A DNA stretch of 56,445 nucleotides from assembly GCA_029240245.1 (NCBI GenBank), contig JARBTJ010000024.1, positions 1-56,445 of the forward strand, written 5' to 3'. This document shows, piece by piece, positions 2,966 through 51,911 of this stretch (position 1 is its first letter; the number at the start of each line of letters is the position of its first letter). A program made the position numbers and the translations under genes. The notes below the pieces were generated by a model. The model was given only the letters and a program-made list of their open reading frames with translations. It made no database searches and was not told where the DNA came from. The stretch is from Herbinix sp. Lineage in GTDB: Bacteria > Bacillota > Clostridia > Lachnospirales > Lachnospiraceae.

Positions 2966-5206
2966 ATGAAGTTTACTTTACCGAAGAGCAGAATCATTCC
3001 TTTAGTTTTTTTGGCTATTATAGGAACGTTGTTATCCTTGATGTTAGGCTTATATTATATGGGACGGATGGCGCAATTTAGCTATAAAACTACGCTGGAT
3101 TCCTATGAAAGTTTAACGGATAATACAGCTATGATACTTAAAAAAAACATAGAGAGTGATTTCCAGTCCTTGCAGGTCTCTGCGAACTTAGTCGGTCAGA
3201 TTGATAACTTAGGTAAAGAACAGATTATGACAATGTTACCGTTGCTTGCAGATAATAAATCCTATATTGATCTTGCAATTGTATTAACTGATGGTAAAGG
3301 GTATAATATAGACGGTAACGAAGTGGATGTTTCCGACGAAGTGTATTTTGATGCGGCTATTCATGGTTTGAAAAGTGTATCGGATCATTTGGTTAACTCA
3401 AAGGACAATGAACCGGCAGTAATCTACACAGTTCCAATATACAATAACGGAAGCAGTATCGGTGTATTACTGGCTACCATCAGTGCATGTATCAATCCAG
3501 AAGCATATATGGATAACGCAAATTTAGACGACACCACGGTATATATATTAAATCAAAACAAGGATTTGGTTTTCTTTTTCGATGAAAATAAAACAACGAA
3601 TATATCTCATATAACAAATTTTAATTATGAACAGGTAATATCGAAAGGTTATATGCATGAAGTCTATGAAAATCAGATTTCAAACTTAGATATGATCAAT
3701 TTCTTATTAAAATATTTAAATAATGAAAAGGAATACATCTGGCATCAGAGTGATCTTGGTATGAATGGGTGGACTTTATTGGTCGGTAATTATGATGTAT
3801 TAGATCCTATCGCTCAGCAAATCTTAAAAATATCCAGCATTATGTGGACATTTCTTATTATTGGTATTTTTCTGTTATTTATGTTACTTATCATCTTTCA
3901 AAGAAAATCCAACCGTAAGGTTATACAGACATTGTATTTGGATCCGGTAACCGGAGGCGGCAACTGGTATAAGTTCCGCCTGGAAGTGAATAAGATACTA
4001 AACAGTAGGCAATTTTCAAAAAAAAGGTATGCTTTAATTAACTTTGATATTAATCGTTTTAAAATAATAAATGATGCTTATGGTTACCAAAAAGGGGATG
4101 AAGTTCTTAAAGATATCTATATGGTCCTGAAAAAATGGGTAAAACCGGGCGAACCGTTTACAAGATATGCGGCTGACCAATTTTACATTTTAATGTCCTT
4201 CCATCAGGAGCAGGAGGTCACAAGCCGGTTAAATGAATTAAATGATCGCTTACGGCAACTGCGCTATACGAAAACAGTGAAAATATTTTTCGGTGTATTT
4301 TATATTACAGAACGAAAAGATTCGATTGACCGCATGGGCGATTTTGCTGGAATCGCTAAAAACCGAAGTAAAGAGAGTAATGAAGGCATGATTTCCTTCT
4401 TCGATGATAAAGCCAGAGGGCGACTCTTAGAAGAGGAAGAAATCGAGAAAAATATGTATGAAGCATTGAGAAATGATGAATTCATCATGTATCTTCAGCC
4501 CAAATATAAAGCAAAAGAAGAAACGGTATCCGGAGCAGAGGCATTGGTTCGCTGGCGTAATAATAAAGGGAACCTTATTACACCGGGATATTTTATTCCG
4601 GTATTCGAGAAAAATGGTTTTATAATTGAACTTGATCTTTATATGCTGAGAAAGGTATGCAGACAGCTTCGGGATTGGTTAAACAGGGGATATCATCCAT
4701 TGCCGATATCTGTTAATATCTCGCGTATTCATTTTGTAAATCCTGCATTGGCAGAAAATATAAAGAATATTGTGGATGAATATGGAATACCGCATGAATT
4801 GATTGAGCTTGAGTTAACGGAGAGTGCATTTTTACAGAGTAAAAGTACATTAATTAAAACAGTAATCGAGCTCAAAAAGTTCGGATTTTTGGTATCTATG
4901 GATGACTTTGGAGCTGGATATTCTTCTCTAAATTCCTTAAAGGATCTTCCGCTAGACATTGTTAAACTGGATGGAGAACTATTCCGAATTACAGAGGAAG
5001 TGGAAAGAGGCTTTACCGTTATCCGAAACACGATATCAATGGCAAAGGATTTACATATGAAGGTCGTAGCGGAGTGCATCGAAACCAGAGAACAGGTGGA
5101 GTTTTTATGTACCGTAGGCTGTGACATCATTCAAGGTTATTATTTTGCAAAACCGATGCCAACCGATCAGTTTGAACAGGAGTACTTAAGGGGACATAAT
5201 AATTAA
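2966..5206 (+). CDS. Membrane c-di-GMP phosphodiesterase: sensor, degenerate GGDEF, EAL
   Basis: The 746-residue membrane signalling protein has a first membrane helix near residues 8-30, an extracytoplasmic sensor of the double-CACHE type to about 285, and a second helix near 292-312. A GGDEF-like domain follows, with the active-site signature replaced by YAADQF (about 401-406), so cyclase activity is unlikely. The EAL domain looks catalytically complete: EALVRW, SVNIS, ELTES, MDDFGAGYSSL, VKLDG, AECIE and DIIQGYYF supply the usual metal and substrate residues. It therefore probably hydrolyses c-di-GMP, with the GGDEF-like part as a regulatory (perhaps GTP-binding) module. Start 2966 is preferred because AAGGGGGA lies 5 bases upstream; an ATG at 2936 lacks this. 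Confidence 0.9.
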   Translation: MKFTLPKSRIIPLVFLAIIGTLLSLMLGLYYMGRMAQFSYKTTLDSYESLTDNTAMILKKNIESDFQSLQVSANLVGQIDNLGKEQIMTMLPLLADNKSYIDLAIVLTDGKGYNIDGNEVDVSDEVYFDAAIHGLKSVSDHLVNSKDNEPAVIYTVPIYNNGSSIGVLLATISACINPEAYMDNANLDDTTVYILNQNKDLVFFFDENKTTNISHITNFNYEQVISKGYMHEVYENQISNLDMINFLLKYLNNEKEYIWHQSDLGMNGWTLLVGNYDVLDPIAQQILKISSIMWTFLIIGIFLLFMLLIIFQRKSNRKVIQTLYLDPVTGGGNWYKFRLEVNKILNSRQFSKKRYALINFDINRFKIINDAYGYQKGDEVLKDIYMVLKKWVKPGEPFTRYAADQFYILMSFHQEQEVTSRLNELNDRLRQLRYTKTVKIFFGVFYITERKDSIDRMGDFAGIAKNRSKESNEGMISFFDDKARGRLLEEEEIEKNMYEALRNDEFIMYLQPKYKAKEETVSGAEALVRWRNNKGNLITPGYFIPVFEKNGFIIELDLYMLRKVCRQLRDWLNRGYHPLPISVNISRIHFVNPALAENIKNIVDEYGIPHELIELELTESAFLQSKSTLIKTVIELKKFGFLVSMDDFGAGYSSLNSLKDLPLDIVKLDGELFRITEEVERGFTVIRNTISMAKDLHMKVVAECIETREQVEFLCTVGCDIIQGYYFAKPMPTDQFEQEYLRGHNN

Positions 5207-5389
5207 TAAAAATCCGATTAAAATCGTACAAAATGTGTGCAATTTTGATGATTGTATTAAGAAGCAGCATATTGTATATTTAGTAATAGATGCGCAACAA
5301 TAGGATTAACAGATTAATAAACACCGGATTCAATTTAGCCATAAATTAATGGCATAGTAATAATTAACGTTTTTTAAGGAGGAACTTAG

Positions 5390-7372
5390 ATGAGCAACAT
5401 TGATACAATGTCAGTAAATGCGATTAGGGTGCTATCAGCGGATGGAGTCCAGAAAGCGAATTCCGGACATCCCGGATTACCATTGGGATCTGCAGCTATG
5501 GCTTATGAAGTATGGGCAAAACATATGAAGCATAATCCAAAGAATCCAAAATGGGCAAACAGAGACAGATTTATTTTATCCGGCGGTCATGGGTCCATGC
5601 TATTATATTCCTTATTACATTTATTTGGTTACGGTCTTACCACAGAGGATTTACAACAGTTTCGTCAGGATAATTCATTAACTCCGGGTCACCCTGAATT
5701 TGGTCATACGATTGGTGTTGAAGCAACCACAGGACCGTTAGGCGCAGGTATGGCGATGGCGGTAGGTATGGCAATGGCAGAAGCACACCTTGGTGCAAAA
5801 TTTAATAAAGAGGGATATTCAGTAGTAGACCACTTTACGTATGTTCTCGGCGGTGACGGATGTATGATGGAAGGTATTACATCAGAAGCCATGTCATTAG
5901 CAGGTACTCTGGGATTAGGTAAATTAATAGTTTTATATGATTCCAATAAAATTTCGATTGAAGGAAATACAGATATCGCATTTGGTGAGGATGTTAAAAA
6001 ACGCTTTGAAGCCTATGGGTTCCAAACTTTGGTCGTTGAAGATGGTAATGATTTGAATGAAATCGGTGCTGCAATCAAAGCCGCAAAGTCTGATTTATCC
6101 AGACCGACCATGATCACCGTGAAAACTAAAATCGGACATGGAAGCCCAAGAGAAGGATTGGCAAGTGCTCATGGTGAACCTCTTGGTGCAGATAATGTAA
6201 GAGCTTTAAAAGAAAAATTAGGATGGCCAAGCCAGGATGCTTTTTATGTTCCTGAGGAAGTATATGATAATTATAAAGCAATCGCTGAGGCGAATGCAAA
6301 GGATGAGGTGGAATGGAACGAAGTATTTGATAAATACTGCAAAGAATTCCCCGAAATGAAAGAATTGTGGGATACCTACCATGATGTTGATATTGCAAAG
6401 AATTTGATCAATAACGAAGAATTTTGGGCATTTGCTGACAAGCCGGAAGCAACCAGAAATCTTTCCGGAATTGCGATCAATAAAATTAAGAAGATTTTAC
6501 CCAACCTGATCGGTGGTGCCGCAGATCTTGCACCGTCAACCAAAACCTATATGAACGATATGGGAGACTTCTCAAAAGAGGATTATTCCGGACGTAATCT
6601 TCATTTTGGTGTTAGAGAACTTGCTATGGCAGGTATCGGTAACGGCTTGGCACTTCACGGAGGATTACGAGCATATGTTTCAACTTTCTTTGTGTTCAGT
6701 GACTATGTTAAGCCTATGGCAAGATTATCTTCATTAATGGGACTTCCGTTAACCTTTGTACTAACTCATGACAGTATTGGTGTTGGTGAAGATGGACCTA
6801 CACATGAACCGATTGAACAGTTGGCAATGCTGCGCGCAATGCCGAACTTTACGGTATTTAGACCTGCTGATGCAACGGAATGCAATGCTGCATGGTATTA
6901 TGCGGTTACTTCCACAAAAACACCGACAGCGCTAGTATTATCACGACAGAATTTACCTCAGCTTCCGGGATCAAGCAAGGATGCGCTTCGAGGTGGTTAC
7001 ATTGTATCAAATTCCAACAAGGCTGTTCCGGATGCAATCATTATGGCCAGCGGTTCTGAAGTTGAACTTGGTATCAATGCGCAGGCTGAGCTAGCAAAAG
7101 AAGGCGTAGACGTAAGAGTAGTGAGTATGCCTTCTATGGATTTATTCGAAGCTCAATCAACAGATTATAAAGAGTCTATTTTACCGAAGAAGGTCAGAGC
7201 TAGAGTAGCTGTAGAAGCAGCAGCTGATTTTGGCTGGGGCAAATATGTTGGTCTGGATGGTACTACAGTAACGATGAAGGGTTTTGGTGCTTCTGCTCCT
7301 GCCACTATATTATTTAAAAAGTTTGGCTTTACAACTGAAAATGTCGTTAATGCGGTTAAAAGCATACTATAA
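5390..7372 (+). CDS. tkt: Transketolase
   Basis: The 660-residue full-length enzyme transfers two-carbon units in the non-oxidative pentose phosphate pathway, using thiamine diphosphate. Visible motifs are GHPGLPLG near the start, the TPP signature GGDGCMMEG with a following Asn (YDSNKISIEG), the pyrimidine-domain GVGEDGPTHEP, and FRPADATE. The start is clear, with AAGGAGG 7 bases upstream. The gene is monocistronic, with a strong terminator 56 bases after the stop. The upstream gap (5207-5389) shows no convincing promoter. Confidence 0.97.
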   Translation: MSNIDTMSVNAIRVLSADGVQKANSGHPGLPLGSAAMAYEVWAKHMKHNPKNPKWANRDRFILSGGHGSMLLYSLLHLFGYGLTTEDLQQFRQDNSLTPGHPEFGHTIGVEATTGPLGAGMAMAVGMAMAEAHLGAKFNKEGYSVVDHFTYVLGGDGCMMEGITSEAMSLAGTLGLGKLIVLYDSNKISIEGNTDIAFGEDVKKRFEAYGFQTLVVEDGNDLNEIGAAIKAAKSDLSRPTMITVKTKIGHGSPREGLASAHGEPLGADNVRALKEKLGWPSQDAFYVPEEVYDNYKAIAEANAKDEVEWNEVFDKYCKEFPEMKELWDTYHDVDIAKNLINNEEFWAFADKPEATRNLSGIAINKIKKILPNLIGGAADLAPSTKTYMNDMGDFSKEDYSGRNLHFGVRELAMAGIGNGLALHGGLRAYVSTFFVFSDYVKPMARLSSLMGLPLTFVLTHDSIGVGEDGPTHEPIEQLAMLRAMPNFTVFRPADATECNAAWYYAVTSTKTPTALVLSRQNLPQLPGSSKDALRGGYIVSNSNKAVPDAIIMASGSEVELGINAQAELAKEGVDVRVVSMPSMDLFEAQSTDYKESILPKKVRARVAVEAAADFGWGKYVGLDGTTVTMKGFGASAPATILFKKFGFTTENVVNAVKSIL

Positions 7373-7427
7373 AATCTTAATAACTTAACGGTAATTTTGT
7401 TAGGGTAAAATGAAAAGCATAATCACG

Positions 7428-7459
7428 AACCGGAGTTGATATCCTAACTCCGGTTTTTT
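7428..7459 (+). terminator. tkt: Terminator of tkt
   Basis: AACCGGAGTT (7428-7437) pairs perfectly with AACTCCGGTT (7446-7455) across an 8-base loop and runs into six T residues. This is a textbook intrinsic terminator. Confidence 0.95.
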
Positions 7460-7649
7460 GTCATATAAAAAAGTAGTGGATAAGGAAAGGACTAAGATTA
7501 GAATTGAATAAGAAATCTTTGTATACGATTGCCATAATTTATATGTTGTGTTATATTAAGCAAACCAAAAAGATAAAATACCGAAGCGGTAAGCATATAT
7601 CACAAGGAAACGTTGGCCTGTCACAAAAATATGAAAGATGGAACATATA

Positions 7650-7677
7650 TTGTCTTAACCGTGTATAGTATTATAAT
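7650..7677 (+). promoter_or_regulatory. Candidate promoter of the small membrane protein gene
   Basis: TTGTCT (7650-7655) and TATAAT (7672-7677) are 16 bases apart, placing transcription start just ahead of the AAGGGAAG ribosome binding site of the gene at 7705. The rest of the 330-base gap after tkt shows only its terminator. Confidence 0.5.
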
Positions 7678-7704
7678 GGAATTATATTACCAAAGGGAAG
7701 AAAT

Positions 7705-8301
7705 ATGAAGAAATTTTTATTCAAAATGATTATGACAGTGTTTATAATATTATGGTTAATCGTCACAATCGCTCATTATATAGGTGTTTACCCTAAGGTA
7801 AAAACTGATCCTATGAGCGCTTTCTTATATAGCCTTATTTTATTTTCGGGTTATGTGTTAATTTTATATGGGTGTTTACGGTTTCTATCAACGTTGTACT
7901 ACCTAGTAAAATATCGTAAAATTAAAGTAAAATACATGGACAATCCCACATTTTTTAAACAGCTGATTTATCTTTTCATGGCTGTTTTCCTAATCTATGG
8001 GTTATGCAGTATGGAGTACTATTTTATTGGGTTGATTCCGATACTGTTATTCTTTTACAAAAAATTCATATCCACTGGCAAATTATATATTTATTATAAG
8101 GATGAGTTACTATATATGGACGAAAACGCGAAAGAATATATCGTAAAGAGTATTAATTCGAGTGAAAATAAAGTCGTAATACAACATAAGAAGAAATCAA
8201 GTCTAAAAACCATCGCACTCAAGCAAAAAAAGAACAATAAGGAGGAGGAGTTTTTATACTCCATAAATCTTTTTACAAGTGAGAATAAGGAAGTGGCTTA
8301 A
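7705..8301 (+). CDS. Unknown small membrane protein
   Basis: I do not recognise this 198-residue protein. The first 125 residues are strongly hydrophobic and suggest three or four membrane helices (about 5-27, 38-65, 85-105, 108-122). The last 75 residues are a basic, lysine-rich cytoplasmic tail (runs such as HKKKSS and KQKKNNKEEE) with a strand-rich segment, KLYIYYKDELLYM. The start is supported by AAGGGAAG. It lies 133 bases upstream of a two-component system on the same strand, but a separate promoter precedes the regulator, so a functional link is only suggested by position. Confidence 0.75.
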   Translation: MKKFLFKMIMTVFIILWLIVTIAHYIGVYPKVKTDPMSAFLYSLILFSGYVLILYGCLRFLSTLYYLVKYRKIKVKYMDNPTFFKQLIYLFMAVFLIYGLCSMEYYFIGLIPILLFFYKKFISTGKLYIYYKDELLYMDENAKEYIVKSINSSENKVVIQHKKKSSLKTIALKQKKNNKEEEFLYSINLFTSENKEVA

Positions 8302-8363
8302 GAAGGTCAATGGAAATTAATTGTGCCAATACATAATTCTAATAGAATTTTAATTTACACATA

Positions 8364-33215: not shown

Positions 33216-33242
33216 TAAATGCTGTACAATAAAATAATTCGG

Positions 33243-33254
33243 CTACATGGATGT
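33243..33254 (+). promoter_or_regulatory. CsrA-site-like element in the flagellin leader
   Basis: CTACATGGATGT lies 94 bases upstream of the flagellin start and matches 10 of 12 positions of the published CsrA SELEX consensus RUACARGGAUGU. Two further GGA motifs (near 33305-33317) and the AAAGGA ribosome binding site follow. In B. subtilis CsrA represses hag through leader GGA motifs. No csrA gene is in the window, so the role here is inferred. A near-match to a sigma-D -10 (GCTGATAT, 33256-33263) directly follows but lacks a TAAA at the right distance. Confidence 0.4.
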
Positions 33255-33347
33255 TGCTGATATGAATTAAATTAAATAGATAACCTGGCGAACCATCAGT
33301 TCATGGAGGGAGATGGATGCAAGACAGAAAGGAAACGGTGAAATGTA

Positions 33348-34898
33348 ATGAGAATTAACCATAATATTTCGGCTTTAAAAGCCAACAACCAATTATCCAG
33401 AACGAACAATTTATTAGACTCAAGTTTAGAGAAATTATCTTCCGGTTTTCGAATTAACAGTGCTGCAGATGATTCTGCAGGCCTTGCAATTTCAGAAAAA
33501 ATGAGAACACAGATTTCCGGTCTGGACCAAGCAACAAGAAATGCTTCTGACGGTATTTCCGTAATTCAGACAGCGGAAGGAGCCTTGGTTGAAGTTGAAT
33601 CTATGCTTCAGAGAATGAGGGAGCTGGCAGTTCAATCCGCTAACGGTACCTATACTACCGAGGACCGTGTGGCAATTCAGGCTGAAATTGATCAGTTAAA
33701 TGAAGAGATAACAAGAATTTCCGAGACAACCGAATTCAATACCATGACTCTGCTCGATGGTAATATCGATAGAAAATCCTATTCCAGTAACAATAAGGTA
33801 GGCCTGGTATCTTTATCCGATACGGTTGCGGTAGGCAGCTACAGCCTGACCGTGAATCAGGATGCAAGACAGGCTGTTGTTGTAGGCCTTGGAACTTCAT
33901 TTGCAACTACCCCTCAGCAAAGAAAGATTGATGGGACTGAGACCGGAACCGTGAATGTTAACGGTGAAGAGGTTACCGTAAATAAGAATGATACTGTAGA
34001 TGAGGTTTTCCAGAAAATCAGAGATGCCTGCGATAATGTAGATGTTAATGTATTTGCAGTGGCAGCAGCTGGAGCACCCTCCACTACAGCTAATCTTGAT
34101 TTGGGTGGTTACACCAGCAAGCAATTAGCAAACGGAGACAAGCTGGTATTCGTATCCAGGGATTATGGTTCCAAAGAAAAGATTGATATCTATTGCGATA
34201 ATCCGAAATTATGTACCATACTGGGATTAACGATAAATGGAGCGAATGCGACCGGTATCGATGCAAAGGCTACCTTAGCCATTAATACACCGACTTCTAA
34301 ATTTAACAATACAGCGACTGTTTCAGTTTCCGGTAATCAGGTATCCGTAACAGACCGCAATGATTTTAAAATGGTATTTGAAATAAGTCCGGGTACTGTA
34401 CAGACGGCATTTGATGATTTAACCGTCGGTCAGACAATGGCTGATTTGACCGCACCGGGCGGTGGTACGCCACAACCGGTAACGATGACCGTCCTGGACG
34501 CAGGTCCGATGGATTTACAGATCGGAGCCAATGAAGGTCAGACGATGGCGGTTCGCATTCCTAAGGTTACTCCGCAGACCTTGGGTGTTGATAAAATTAA
34601 TATCGGTACAGCAGCCGGAGCACAGGAAGCTATCGGCTTATTGGATACGGCTATTAACACGGTTTCCGCCATCCGTTCCAAACTGGGTGCATATCAGAAC
34701 CGTTTAGAGCATTCCATTTCCAACCTGGATGTAACCTCCGAGAACATGACCGAATCCTTATCCCGTATTGAAGATGTGGATATGGCGGAGGAGATGGCAG
34801 AATATACTCAGAAAAACGTACTTGCTCAGGCCGGCACTTCCATGCTTGCCCAAGCAAATCAAAGGCCTCAGACAATTTTATCCCTACTCCAGCAGTAA
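33348..34898 (+). CDS. hag: Flagellin
   Basis: The 516-residue filament subunit has conserved D0/D1 helices at the N-terminus ([38 protein letters not shown], about 1-140) and the C-terminus ([15 protein letters not shown] to [15 protein letters not shown], about 440-516). The middle 300 residues are variable and carry beta-rich surface domains. AAAGGAAACGGTGAA precedes the ATG. The gene is followed by a FliS-like chaperone gene, the usual partner for export of flagellin. No other flagellar structural genes are in the window. Confidence 0.97.
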
Positions 34899-34976: not shown

Positions 34977-35456
34977 ATGAATAAAGAATCGATTCAGACC
35001 TTTACTGCAAGGATTACTCAGGCCTCGAAAAGTGAACTGATTGTAATCCTGTATGAAATGATTTTATCCGAGTTGCAGGAAGCAAGAAGAGCATATGAGA
35101 CAGGCGATTTCATTATTTTTGATAAAGAGCTTAAGAAAGCACATAAATTCGTAAACGAATTGATTGTACCTCTGGATTATAAATATGCGGTATCATATGA
35201 TCTGTTAACCCTTTATCTTTATGTGAATAAAAGGATTATTACAGCAATCATCAAGAAAAATCCGATTTCTTTAGATAGTGCGGAGTCGGTTTTACATAAA
35301 CTTCTGAACGGGTTTGTGGGTGTCAGCAAAGCTGATACCAGCGGTCCGGTAATGCGTAACACGCAGCAGCTCTACGCGGGCTTAACCTACGGTAAGGGAA
35401 AACTCAATGAAACTTACATCAATCCTGACAACAGGAACCGCGGGTTTATTGCATAA
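34977..35456 (+). CDS. fliS: FliS-like flagellin export chaperone
   Basis: The 159-residue helical protein opens like FliS (QASKSELIVILYEMILSELQEARRAYETGDF). It continues with the expected helices, including AHKFVNELIVPLDYKYAVSYDLLTLYLYVNKR. About 30 residues at the C-terminus extend beyond the usual FliS length. FliS binds the flagellin C-terminus and keeps it export-competent. GGAGGTAATATT precedes the ATG, 78 bases after the flagellin stop, so it is probably co-transcribed. Confidence 0.85.
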   Translation: MNKESIQTFTARITQASKSELIVILYEMILSELQEARRAYETGDFIIFDKELKKAHKFVNELIVPLDYKYAVSYDLLTLYLYVNKRIITAIIKKNPISLDSAESVLHKLLNGFVGVSKADTSGPVMRNTQQLYAGLTYGKGKLNETYINPDNRNRGFIA

Positions 35457-35494
35457 AAGCCACATCTACGAAAGATAAGGCATGAAAGTGCGTA

Positions 35495-35918
35495 AAAGTT
35501 CAAAGGAATTGTAATATACTAAGGATTTGGAAAGTACTAAGGATTTGTAAGGCACAAAGGAATTAGAAAGTACGAAGGATTTGGAAAAACAAAGGATTCG
35601 TAAAGTACGAAGGATTTGGAAAGAACGTAGGATTTGTAAGGTACAAAGGAATTAGAAAGTACTAAGGATTTGGAAAAAACAAAGGATTAGTAAAGTACGA
35701 AGGATTTGTAAGGTACAAAGGATTTGGGAAGTACGAAGGATTTGTAAAGTACATAGGAATTGGAAAGTACAAAGGATATGTAAAGTACAATTTGGATATC
35801 ACTAGGATATGCAAAGTACAAAGGAATTGTAATGTACAAGAACTTGGATATCACAAAGGATATGTAAAGTACAATAGAAGTGTAATGTACATAGGAACCG
35901 TACAGTACGAAAGATAAT
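35495..35918 (+). repeat. Array of about 22 degenerate 18-bp GGA repeats downstream of fliS
   Basis: The unit is AAAGTACRAAGGATTTGK (18 bases), repeated head to tail with small changes. It includes two units lengthened by an inserted TTGGATATCAC-type segment (near 35789-35799 and 35843-35853). A 76-base block at about 35541 recurs nearly intact at about 35631, so groups of five units were also duplicated. Almost every unit keeps GGA, about 22 GGA motifs in 424 bases. The array starts 38 bases after the fliS stop and ends 49 bases before a terminator, so it is probably the 3' untranslated part of the flagellin-fliS transcript. It has stops in all plus frames. The minus-strand 91-codon ORF across it is only the repeat read in register. 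Confidence 0.92.
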
Positions 35919-35966
35919 CCAAGAAATACCAAAGAGATAGTACCAAGGAAGTAAAGTAACATAATC

Positions 35967-36040
35967 AGGCTGTCCTATATACCTTTATAACTCATCGGCG
36001 AAGCCGATGCTTATTGAAGGAAATGGGACAGCCTTTATTT
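35967..36040. terminator. Composite terminator of the flagellin-fliS-repeat transcript
   Basis: AGGCTGTCC (35967-35975) pairs with GGACAGCCT (36026-36034) and is followed by TTATTTATA. Inside the loop a second perfect hairpin, CATCGGC-GAA-GCCGATG (35993-36009), is present. It lies between the repeat array and the convergent yaaL gene and can serve both. Confidence 0.85.
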
Positions 36041-36093: not shown

Positions 36094-36309
36094 TTAGCAA
36101 TAATTTTTCTCAGAAGCCTTTGCTTGTTTTAAAAGGAATCTGTATCTGTTCTGTACGGCGTTCATCTCATAGATGCAGCTGTCAATTAGATCCGGGTCAA
36201 CGACATTTTCAAAGTTAGAATATGCTGCTTCCATAGCAATTTTCGTTTTATTTATCTCTTTTAATAACATATCATCCTGTGGATGCTTCTTTTTCGCAAA
36301 CAAACGCAT
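36094..36309 (-). CDS. yaaL: YaaL-like DUF2508 protein
   Basis: The 71-residue, mostly helical protein has the DUF2508 pattern DPDLIDSCIYEMNAVQNRYRFLLKQAK. AAGGAGG precedes its ATG. In Bacillus and many Clostridia yaaL lies beside bofA. Here the two are divergent, separated by 140 bases, which supports both assignments. Function is unknown. Confidence 0.85.
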   Translation of the reverse strand: MRLFAKKKHPQDDMLLKEINKTKIAMEAAYSNFENVVDPDLIDSCIYEMNAVQNRYRFLLKQAKASEKNYC

Positions 36310-38169: not shown

Positions 38170-39048
38170 ATGAAGGATCAATTACAAAAGGCCGTATTAG
38201 AAAGCATTGATTTGGGAAAAGAGATTACCGACGAGGAAATTCTAGAGACCATTGATCAGATTTTGATCAGAAAAAGTAAGGAATGCTATATCAGTATGCA
38301 GGAAAAGCAGAGATTAAAAAAAGAAATATTTAACTCAATCCGCAGACTGGATATCCTGCAAGGGTTGATAGAGGATTCTTCAATTACCGAGATTATGATT
38401 AATGGCTACCAGAAAATATTCATTGAACAGAATGGTTGTATATTCCCATATGATAAATGTTTCGATTCGGAACAAAAGTTAGAGGACGTTGTCCAGCAAA
38501 TCGTCGCCCAGGCAAACCGAATTATTAATGAATCCAGTCCGATTGTAGATTCAAGATTATCGGACGGTTCACGAGTCAATATAGTGTTACCACCGGTAGC
38601 TATTAACGGACCTATTATAACGATACGTAAATTTCCCAATCAACCCATCACCATGGAACAGCTATTATCGTATGAATCTATCACCCAGGAAGCAGTCATT
38701 TTCTTAAAAAAGCTGGTTATCGCCGGCTATAATATCTTTATCAGTGGTGGAACCGGGTCAGGTAAAACCACATTCTTAAATGTTTTATCTAATTATATCC
38801 CAAACACAGAGAGAATTATAACAATTGAAGATTCCGCCGAGCTGCAAATTCGTAATATACCAAACCTGGTACGGTTGGAGGCTCGAAATGCAAATACGGA
38901 GGGCAACAATGAGATAACAATACGTAATCTTATTAAAACATCCCTTCGTATGAGACCTAACCGAATTATCGTTGGTGAAGTCAGAGATGCTGCAGCAATC
39001 GATATGCTTCAGGCCCTTAATACAGGGCATACGTTATTAGCACTATAG
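38170..39048 (+). pseudogene. cpaF: CpaF/TadA pilus ATPase, truncated by prophage insertion
   Basis: The 292-residue product contains the N-terminal region of secretion ATPases, Walker A (ISGGTGSGKTTF, about 191-202), the Asp box (ITIEDSAEL) and Walker B (RIIVGEVRDAAA, about 265-276). It then stops at QALNTGH followed by five codons, TLLAL, that belong to the inserted DNA. Intact relatives continue with the His box and about 130 more residues. The junction coincides with the left end of a prophage whose integrase gene begins 6 bases on. The Tad pilus is presumably non-functional while the phage is present. The start is ATG, with AGGGAGGT 12 bases upstream. Confidence 0.9.
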
Positions 39049-39055
39049 CAATAAC
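39022..39055. other. Left attachment junction (attL) of the prophage in cpaF
   Basis: Reading frame and family comparison place the host-phage border in or next to ACAGGGCAT (39022-39030). After it the sequence departs from the expected Asp-Gly-Ser codons. On the phage side an imperfect inverted repeat, GTTATTAGC (39033-39041) and GCAATAAC (39048-39055), could be the half-site bound by the integrase. The exact crossover bases cannot be fixed without attR or the empty site. Confidence 0.7.
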
Positions 39056-40443
39056 TACATAAAAATAAGCTTGATGGAACGATCAGAAAAGAAACGTATT
39101 TCTTGTAATATAGACCGCCAGAAGCGTACCTTTTCATTAAAATTGAAGGTTGAATAAATGTCTTCAAAATTGCTGTTTAGCAATTCCTTTACTTTAGATA
39201 AGTCTCTCTTAGGATATTCCTGCTGTGGGATTGCGCTTAAGTGATCGAGCAATTTTGCCCGGTCAATTTTAAATTCATCCATGGAAATCAGCTCATTTAA
39301 GTAGAGATCTTTTAGCCTTTCAATTTTATCTTCAATCTGTTTTCTCTTTGCATTAGTGCTAATAATTGGTGCGGAGGCTATTTCATATTCACCGACATAT
39401 CCTTCGAGGTCCTCGCGCAAATGAGAAATTAAATATTTCTCAAGAGTACTCTCAAAGAGTATCTTTTTGTTATCACACAGTTTTAGATCGAAATGTCTTT
39501 TACAACGATATCCGTTACGTTTATATTTTTTCCTGGTACCATCTAAACGAGGATGGCCAATCCCGTGCACTTGATGAGCTGCCATGGCAGATCCGCAATC
39601 TCCACAGCGTACCATTCCGGAAAACAGATAATCATTAACTTTATTAGCCTTTATATTATGAGATAACAAATGCTGGACTAAATCAAAGGTTTCTCGGTCT
39701 ACAATTGATTCACAGTAATTTAGATTTCCCCGGAACTCACCTATATACTTCCTGTTTTTTAAAATGCTTCTACGATATGTAGGAGCTGTTCTGTCAATAC
39801 CATAATTTTCGCGCATATATTTCATAACTTCAATCAAGTTTGAAGTTTTTTTATAATGCTCAAATATTTCAACAACAAACTTTGCGTTTTCATCCGGTAC
39901 AAGTCTCTTGTTTTCTATTCGATAACCAAAAGGAGCCGTTCCAGAGATTACTTCCCCAAATTTAACTTTACTATCAAATACCGCCAATATACGCTCGGAG
40001 TCGTTCTGTGCTTCTAATTCGGCCCACGTCATGGATTGCGCTACAAACGCCCTGCCGTGGGCTGTTGTTGTATCAAAAAATGGTTGAGAGACTGCAGTCC
40101 ATGTAATCCCATGTTCTTCCAGTAGGGCTTGTGTGTTGAGATAATGCCGAAGCGAACGAAACCACCGGTCTAACTTAGTAAACAATATAATATCTATCTT
40201 TCCAGATTTAACATCATCCATGAGACGCGTAAAATCATCACGATTTATCTTCTGGCCGGAAATACCATCATCGATATAAGTATCATAAACAACCATATCC
40301 TCATGTTTATTAGCATAGTTCTGCAAGGTTTCAAGTTGTTCTCGGAGACTATCTCCTGTTTTGGCTTGCTTATCGGAGCTAACACGTAAGTATAAAGCTA
40401 CGTGATGTAAAGTTGTTTCTTTTCTCTTTTTAATATCAATCAC
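39055..40443 (-). CDS. Large serine integrase
   Basis: The 462-residue site-specific recombinase has a resolvase catalytic domain at residues 12-150, with Ser in YLRVSSDKQ near 22 and DGISGQKINRDDF, plus ILFTKLDRWFRS with conserved Arg residues. The recombinase domain (APFGYRIENKRL) covers about 175-290, a zinc ribbon has CGDCG and the later CKRH...C, and a coiled-coil segment lies near 360-410. It should integrate and excise the prophage at cpaF. It ends 6 bases from the truncated cpaF stop, the usual place beside attL. The apparent start is GTG with a weak ribosome binding site. Confidence 0.95.
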   Translation of the reverse strand: MIDIKKRKETTLHHVALYLRVSSDKQAKTGDSLREQLETLQNYANKHEDMVVYDTYIDDGISGQKINRDDFTRLMDDVKSGKIDIILFTKLDRWFRSLRHYLNTQALLEEHGITWTAVSQPFFDTTTAHGRAFVAQSMTWAELEAQNDSERILAVFDSKVKFGEVISGTAPFGYRIENKRLVPDENAKFVVEIFEHYKKTSNLIEVMKYMRENYGIDRTAPTYRRSILKNRKYIGEFRGNLNYCESIVDRETFDLVQHLLSHNIKANKVNDYLFSGMVRCGDCGSAMAAHQVHGIGHPRLDGTRKKYKRNGYRCKRHFDLKLCDNKKILFESTLEKYLISHLREDLEGYVGEYEIASAPIISTNAKRKQIEDKIERLKDLYLNELISMDEFKIDRAKLLDHLSAIPQQEYPKRDLSKVKELLNSNFEDIYSTFNFNEKVRFWRSILQEIRFFSDRSIKLIFM

Positions 40444-51603: not shown

Positions 51604-51911
51604 GGGAAATACTTTCCCTATAATTTTCCCTGACAGGGAAAAAGTCGATAAATTCTCGAGAATTTCCCTAAAGTAAAAAAATGTCACGGATGGAAAAACT
51701 CGATGATTTTCCCTCTTTCCCTCAATGGGAAAAAGTCGGTGATTCTCGAGAATTTCCCTTTGAGGGAAAAACTCGGTAAATATCGAGAATTTCCCTAGGG
51801 AAGAAAATACTATATATATAAATATATATTCCGTTTCGCTTTCCCTACGGTCAAGGGGAAAAGAAGTTGTGCGAATGCTGACGCACAACAACTACTTTCC
51901 CTTTCCTTGAC
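51604..51911. repeat. Putative phage replication origin: palindromic iterons, AT-rich tract, long hairpin
   Basis: Four related units occur at 51636-51669, 51692-51714 (short), 51727-51759 and 51764-51796. Each runs from GGGAAAAA through GTCG or CTCG and a central ATTCTCGAGAAT-type palindrome to TTTCCCT. A mini-hairpin GGGAAA-TAC-TTTCCC lies at 51604-51618. After the units comes an AT-only tract (51810-51829). Then a long hairpin follows: GTCAAGG (51850) pairs with CCTTGAC (51905-51911) and inside it GTTGTGCG/CGCACAAC (51866-51873 / 51882-51889). Position directly after the primase-helicase gene supports an origin; this is inference. Confidence 0.65.

Follow-up and report, generated by a model that had tools for sequence, protein, structure and literature searches.

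Introduction

The CrcZ-type decoy RNAs of Hfq/Crc carry A-rich, repeated, single-stranded sites. The sites of CsrB/CsrC and RsmY/Z have a GGA core and lie largely in hairpin loops, and the SELEX consensus of CsrA is RUACARGGAUGU with fully conserved ACA and GGA, as described in PMC7652899. Titration of CsrA by a flagellin mRNA has already been published for Campylobacter: according to PMC4894983, the flaA mRNA of Campylobacter jejuni does so via two GGA hexaloops in its 5' leader. We report here an array of short repeated motifs in the flagellin-fliS 3' UTR of Herbinix sp., which an earlier note had proposed to be a CsrA sponge. Our literature search, with most subscription journals outside its coverage, found no description of such an array.

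Results

Layout of the flagellin-fliS locus

The window is the whole stretch of DNA that was analysed, 56,445 nucleotides of contig JARBTJ010000024.1. The features of the locus are:

33240..33259, + strand: flagellin-leader hairpin of the CsrA type, CGGCTACATGGATGTTGCTG, whose loop contains GGA (clade comparison)
33293..33316, + strand: second GGA-rich segment of the flagellin leader, CCATC..CATGGAGGGAGATGG, with a weak fold that is inconsistent between species
33348..34898, + strand: flagellin gene (PF00669, PF00700)
34977..35456, + strand: fliS-type gene (PF02561), directly 5' of the array, stop at 35454-35456
35468..35949, + strand: array of 22 copies of AC-N-[A/T]-A-N-GA, mostly in 18-nt steps, 19 of the 22 of GGA type (TRF and pattern count)
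35967..36034, + strand: terminator-like hairpin with a T-rich tail, TTTATTTA, which closes the 3' UTR (-36.6 kcal/mol)
36094..36309, - strand: DUF2508 gene, a conserved neighbour serving as locus marker (27 of 30 fetched fliS loci)

The hairpin at 35967-36034 also faces the convergent DUF2508 gene; it was missing from a simple terminator scan because its loop is too long for the rule of that scan.

About 22 copies of an 18-base unit between the fliS stop and a terminator had been described in the earlier note, and TRF gave indeed a period of 18 with 21.5 copies, 70% matches and a score of 326 at 35495-35874. The array was rightly placed at 35495-35918, but the motif copies span more than this, the 22 matches to the pattern AC.[AT]A.GA starting from 35468 to 35942 with a spacing of about 18 nt and reading mostly UACNAAGGA. 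Dinucleotide shuffles of the array contained on average 0.9 copies (50 shuffles) compared to 22 in the real sequence. With the same motif and limits, no comparable cluster was found in the whole window, sense or antisense, the runner-up having 3 copies. An Rfam scan of the window at gathering score returned seven tRNAs alone, and the array matched no family.

Elsewhere in the window, the region 38170-40443 holds two adjoining genes, one for a type II/IV secretion ATPase, which stops at 39048 and whose match to PF00437 reaches profile position 240 of 370, and one for a serine recombinase on the minus strand (39055-40443, PF00239); an integrated element probably entered the ATPase gene. A 37-base direct repeat of 2.1 copies with 78% matches lies at 51729-51807.

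GGA units of the window

The region 35457-35950 contained 29 GGA compared to 12.4 in mononucleotide shuffles, several of them as extra GGAs in the spacer (TTTGGAAAG). The earlier note had taken GGA for the selected core of drifting units and had pointed to two insertion units that each gained another GGA. Within the array, GTAC was kept in 18 copies and AAGGA in 17, so that GGA is not outstanding there, and both insertion units are covered by a 53-nt period of 2.5 copies (TRF, 35764-35891), which makes one copied event more probable than two gains. The GGA units of the window look like one unit type multiplied by duplication. The array of the window folded more strongly than its shuffles (z of -5.2 and -5.6), whereas the other 22 UTRs had z values of -2.1 to +2.3 and the RNA structure is not common to the species.

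Conservation of the motif in congeners

The fliS protein was searched for in 99 relatives including the genome of the window, of which 34 form the genus (G000-G033); Mobilitalea sibirica and Herbinix are among the named relatives at these same levels of fliS identity. Among the 30 fliS loci fetched, the DUF2508 neighbour was present in 27, those of the window and of 26 congeners, and in these the stretch from the fliS stop to the hairpin was compared. Between 2 and 20 motif copies were present in 20 of the 26 congeners, and counted copies were absent from this stretch in the other 6, the single copy of locus L039 being cut by the hairpin bound. In the 23 pooled congener UTRs longer than 40 nt, with that of the window and three of 1, 17 and 21 nt left out, we found 176 forward and 2 reverse copies, the shuffles giving a mean of 11.5 and a maximum of 20 (100 shuffles). 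The uniform orientation could partly stem from local duplication. Expectation maximization from random starts, with the window excluded, gave the motif AARR-U-A98-C99-N-A70/T23-A96-A69/T15/G13-G99-A88. The steps from copy to copy measured 16-22 nt in 104 of 173 cases with a peak at 18 (21 loci including that of the window), and of the 20 named loci that had two or more copies, 18 had their first copy start no more than about 16 nt from the fliS stop. The locus of Mobilitalea sibirica DSM 26468 had 18 copies. The fliS loci labelled Anaerocolumna (8) and Mobilisporobacter (1) lacked an array; they contained at most one copy over 700 nt (218 nt in L070).

A neutral minisatellite would account for the whole units, spacers included, that stand in tandem in the window and in genome G031, whose 18-nt array is as regular as that of the window, has different spacers and is cut by the contig end. 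In most congeners, however, the motif is kept while the spacers are unrelated, which argues against one drifting minisatellite; the motif positions are conserved over the spacers across the species, and the same motif occurs at unrelated loci of other families. We therefore give this explanation hardly any weight. A fixed short motif repeated along a transcript could also be the pairing target of a small or structural RNA. Yet changes at position 4 of the motif favour T (23%) over G (6%), and G is the base with which a G-U pair would be retained. This makes a single fixed RNA partner less likely, and we regard such pairing as very improbable.

The GGA core and CsrA

The presence of csrA and fliW, for which the earlier note had advised to search the genome, was confirmed: the two genes are direct neighbours on a different contig (C21) and make the CsrA idea a reasonable one. 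Csr-type titration by the abundant flagellin mRNA would moreover suit the 19 GGA-type units of the window, the strong fold of its array and the 18-nt step, which is near the optimum published for dual-site CsrA binding in PMC7652899 and PMC4894983. We found csrA in 29 of the 34 congeners and in 5 of the 7 array-bearing genomes outside the genus, with two csrA matches each on contigs G656:C1 and G561:C1. No csrA match was obtained in the two others, G185 (98% complete) and G508 (97% complete), which are drafts, and to that extent the arrays are not restricted to genomes where csrA occurs. Two array-bearing congeners lacking csrA, G030 and G017, were dropped as an argument, since in both the contig breaks off within flgL or shortly behind it, short of the fliW-csrA position.

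A loss of GGA in the homologous arrays, which the earlier note had named as an outcome that would refute its idea, was observed. Position 6 of the 176 congener copies gave AGA 116, UGA 30, GGA 24 and CGA 6; GGA-type copies were absent from 12 of the 20 array-bearing congeners, and G031 had 1 in 14. In ten further arrays, G015 and G031 included, the 76 copies had A 62, T 7, G 6 and C 1 at this position. The motif and its non-GGA core are thus well supported across the clade, and since GGA is not kept in the repeated sites outside the window, the array was not placed in the CsrB family.

The flagellin leader served as a control. A hairpin of the form CGGC-CACAYGGAKGUU-GCUG was found in 17 of 25 leaders (2 of the 25 from outside the genus). 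A pattern with the first G of GGA left open retrieved 16 hairpins, which fold with GGA in the loop; this base was G in 16 of 16 compared to 24 of 176 in the arrays (Fisher p 7e-13, the rows being related and not independent). As far as these sequences tell, GGA is evidently still recognised by the CsrA of the clade, and the array is a different thing. The leader hairpin was missed in six congeners, L054 (with a visible variant), L057, L060, L073, L087 and L092, and the array was kept in four of the last five; this is weak evidence against CsrA, which could act on other targets as well. The idea of another hairpin in the leader (site 2) was rejected, its fold being weak and different between species.

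CsrA is accordingly not supported as the clade-wide reader of the array. A repeated, sponge-like element in the flagellin-fliS 3' UTR, as the earlier note proposed, still fits the evidence; CsrA as its reader and GGA as its selected core are not supported, and the unshared fold argues in the same direction. We consider a CsrA sponge improbable, although the 19 GGA-type units of this single species could be secondary sites for CsrA.

Arrays at other places and in other genera

A sequence-only model of three units (R1) was built from seven congener loci without the sequence of the window. Against the 34 congeners it gave 22 matches at E<0.01, all at the fliS-DUF2508 locus, and these included six genomes absent from the model (G000, G002, G003, G019, G029, G031). 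Off-locus matches at E 0.01-1 in congeners were inspected for 6 of many, and one, on contig G015:C90, was an array: this second array of G015 (E 0.02) lies in the 3' UTR of a chemoreceptor (MCP) gene (PF00015), before a terminator. In locus L138, the two MCP genes at 3971-5701 and 6611-8344 both end in codons for EFGKY and a stop, and at one of these ends GAGTTTGGAAAGTACTAAGGA, which resembles the window unit TTTGGAAAGTACTAAGGA, runs into the second array. At E<0.01 the genome of the window had no further array, two weak matches inspected, on contigs C31 and C28, lying in open coding frames.

Among 299 genomes of the family, R1 at E<=0.001 matched three others. G215 has four copies directly behind 6S RNA (RF00013, 78.4 bits), before a terminator. 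G185 has four copies in 17-nt steps before a terminator, in a probably non-coding stretch with no evident gene on that strand. The match in G314 was rejected as a coding chance match. Among 392 genomes of the order, a second model (R2), R1 plus G215, G185 and G031, matched nine others at E<=0.003, five of them with arrays outside evident genes. The array of G656 again lies behind 6S RNA (65.4 bits), with a T-tailed hairpin following it. Three others lie before a terminator and upstream of fliE (PF02049) in G084 (family f25); behind a gene without Pfam match in G508 (family f17; 11 copies, with 2 at another place); and between a GH3-type and a HAD-type gene in G561. The fifth, in G564 (family f5), has 20 copies mostly in 17-nt steps. 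The loci rejected as coding, low complexity or another repeat were L157 in the R1 search and L164, L167, L168 and L169 in the R2 search, these four being the remaining matches of R2. In the 6S RNA genes of two genera (L156 1327-1561; L160 1455-1765, minus strand), the motif array forms part of a 3' tail that precedes the terminator. Two small ORFs that are rich in Gly/Tyr and contain a CCC motif, bacteriocin-precursor-like by eye, were observed upstream of the G564 array (L165 2131-2713, minus strand); the one searched had no Pfam match.

Arrays outside the genus are therefore rare, in 2 of 298 other genomes of the family and 5 of 391 others of the order (7 genomes), in searches so strictly filtered that weak arrays were missed, such as the 5 copies of congener G004 by both models. 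The E-values are rough, chance matches making up 1 of 3 non-own genomes in the R1 family search and 4 of 9 in the R2 order search, and one array per genome is what the search thresholds show, no more.

These positions bear on the main and serious rival, in which the same non-CsrA sites would act in cis at their own 3' end, in RNA stability, in termination or 3' processing, or in localisation of the flagellin mRNA. The array ends near the terminator in 27 of 27 aligned loci, although by construction of the bounds; a terminator stands near the array end independently in G215, G656, G185, G084 and G015, and the closeness of the first copy to the fliS stop is also in line with such a role. However, the host genes vary by lineage, congeners of identical gene order have 0 to 20 copies, and no terminator was seen after the arrays of G561 and G564 and an unclear one in G508. 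We judge a cis role to be rather unlikely, though well worth keeping in view.

Discussion

The array recurs with its motif, orientation and spacing at the 3' ends of the congeners' flagellin-fliS loci and at other 3' ends, and its conserved core is not GGA. The invariant C and GA, the degenerate middle, the free spacers, the fixed orientation and the near-constant step point to a single-strand RNA-binding factor as the selector. Each unit, AARR-U-A-C-N-W-A-D-G-A, would be one putative site, about one per 18 nt, occupied by a sequence-specific single-strand RNA-binding factor other than CsrA, probably a protein and present in several families of the order. Flagellin mRNA and 6S RNA are abundant transcripts. 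The host transcripts differ by lineage (flagellin-fliS, 6S RNA, a chemoreceptor gene and others), which suggests that an array matters through how many sites it adds to the cell and not for one gene, and which makes a role in trans the likeliest. If transcribed, the array would then titrate its factor in trans as a sponge on an abundant transcript, as CsrB does for CsrA. We thus propose, with a probability of about 0.5, that the flagellin-fliS 3' UTR carries a platform of many binding sites for a single-strand RNA-binding factor which is sequence-specific and is not CsrA, with titration in trans as the likeliest role of the platform. More tentatively, Lachnospirales may have an undescribed RNA-binding regulator set by decoy arrays (AC-N-W-A-D-GA every 17-18 nt) on lineage-specific, highly expressed transcripts, namely flagellin-fliS mRNA, 6S RNA tails, chemoreceptor mRNA and stand-alone RNAs.

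If this proposal is true, an order common in gut and digester uses a multi-site RNA platform for a factor that nobody has named, and the two arrays behind 6S RNA would connect this factor with an RNA whose target is RNA polymerase. With 10 to 20 natural sites per RNA, the arrays offer themselves as baits and should pull out the binder directly. The comparison also corrects the attractive CsrA reading and reveals a CsrA-type hairpin in the flagellin leader of the clade.

With CsrB/CsrC and RsmY/Z the array shares many short sites on one RNA; these RNAs titrate a regulator, while binding and titration by the array are putative, and the array differs from them by its conserved core AC-N-W-A-D-GA, mostly without GGA, and by having no conserved fold. 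The array and the C. jejuni flaA sites both lie on an abundant flagellin mRNA and both are proposed sponges, but the array offers up to about 20 putative sites with another core in the 3' UTR, whereas those of flaA are in the 5' leader. Compared to 6S RNA (RF00013), directly behind which it stands in G215 and G656, the array lies outside the 6S model and, in the clade of the window, on a different transcript. It resembles the CrcZ-type decoys in its A-rich repeated sites, to which it adds the invariant C and GA, the regular step and other hosts.
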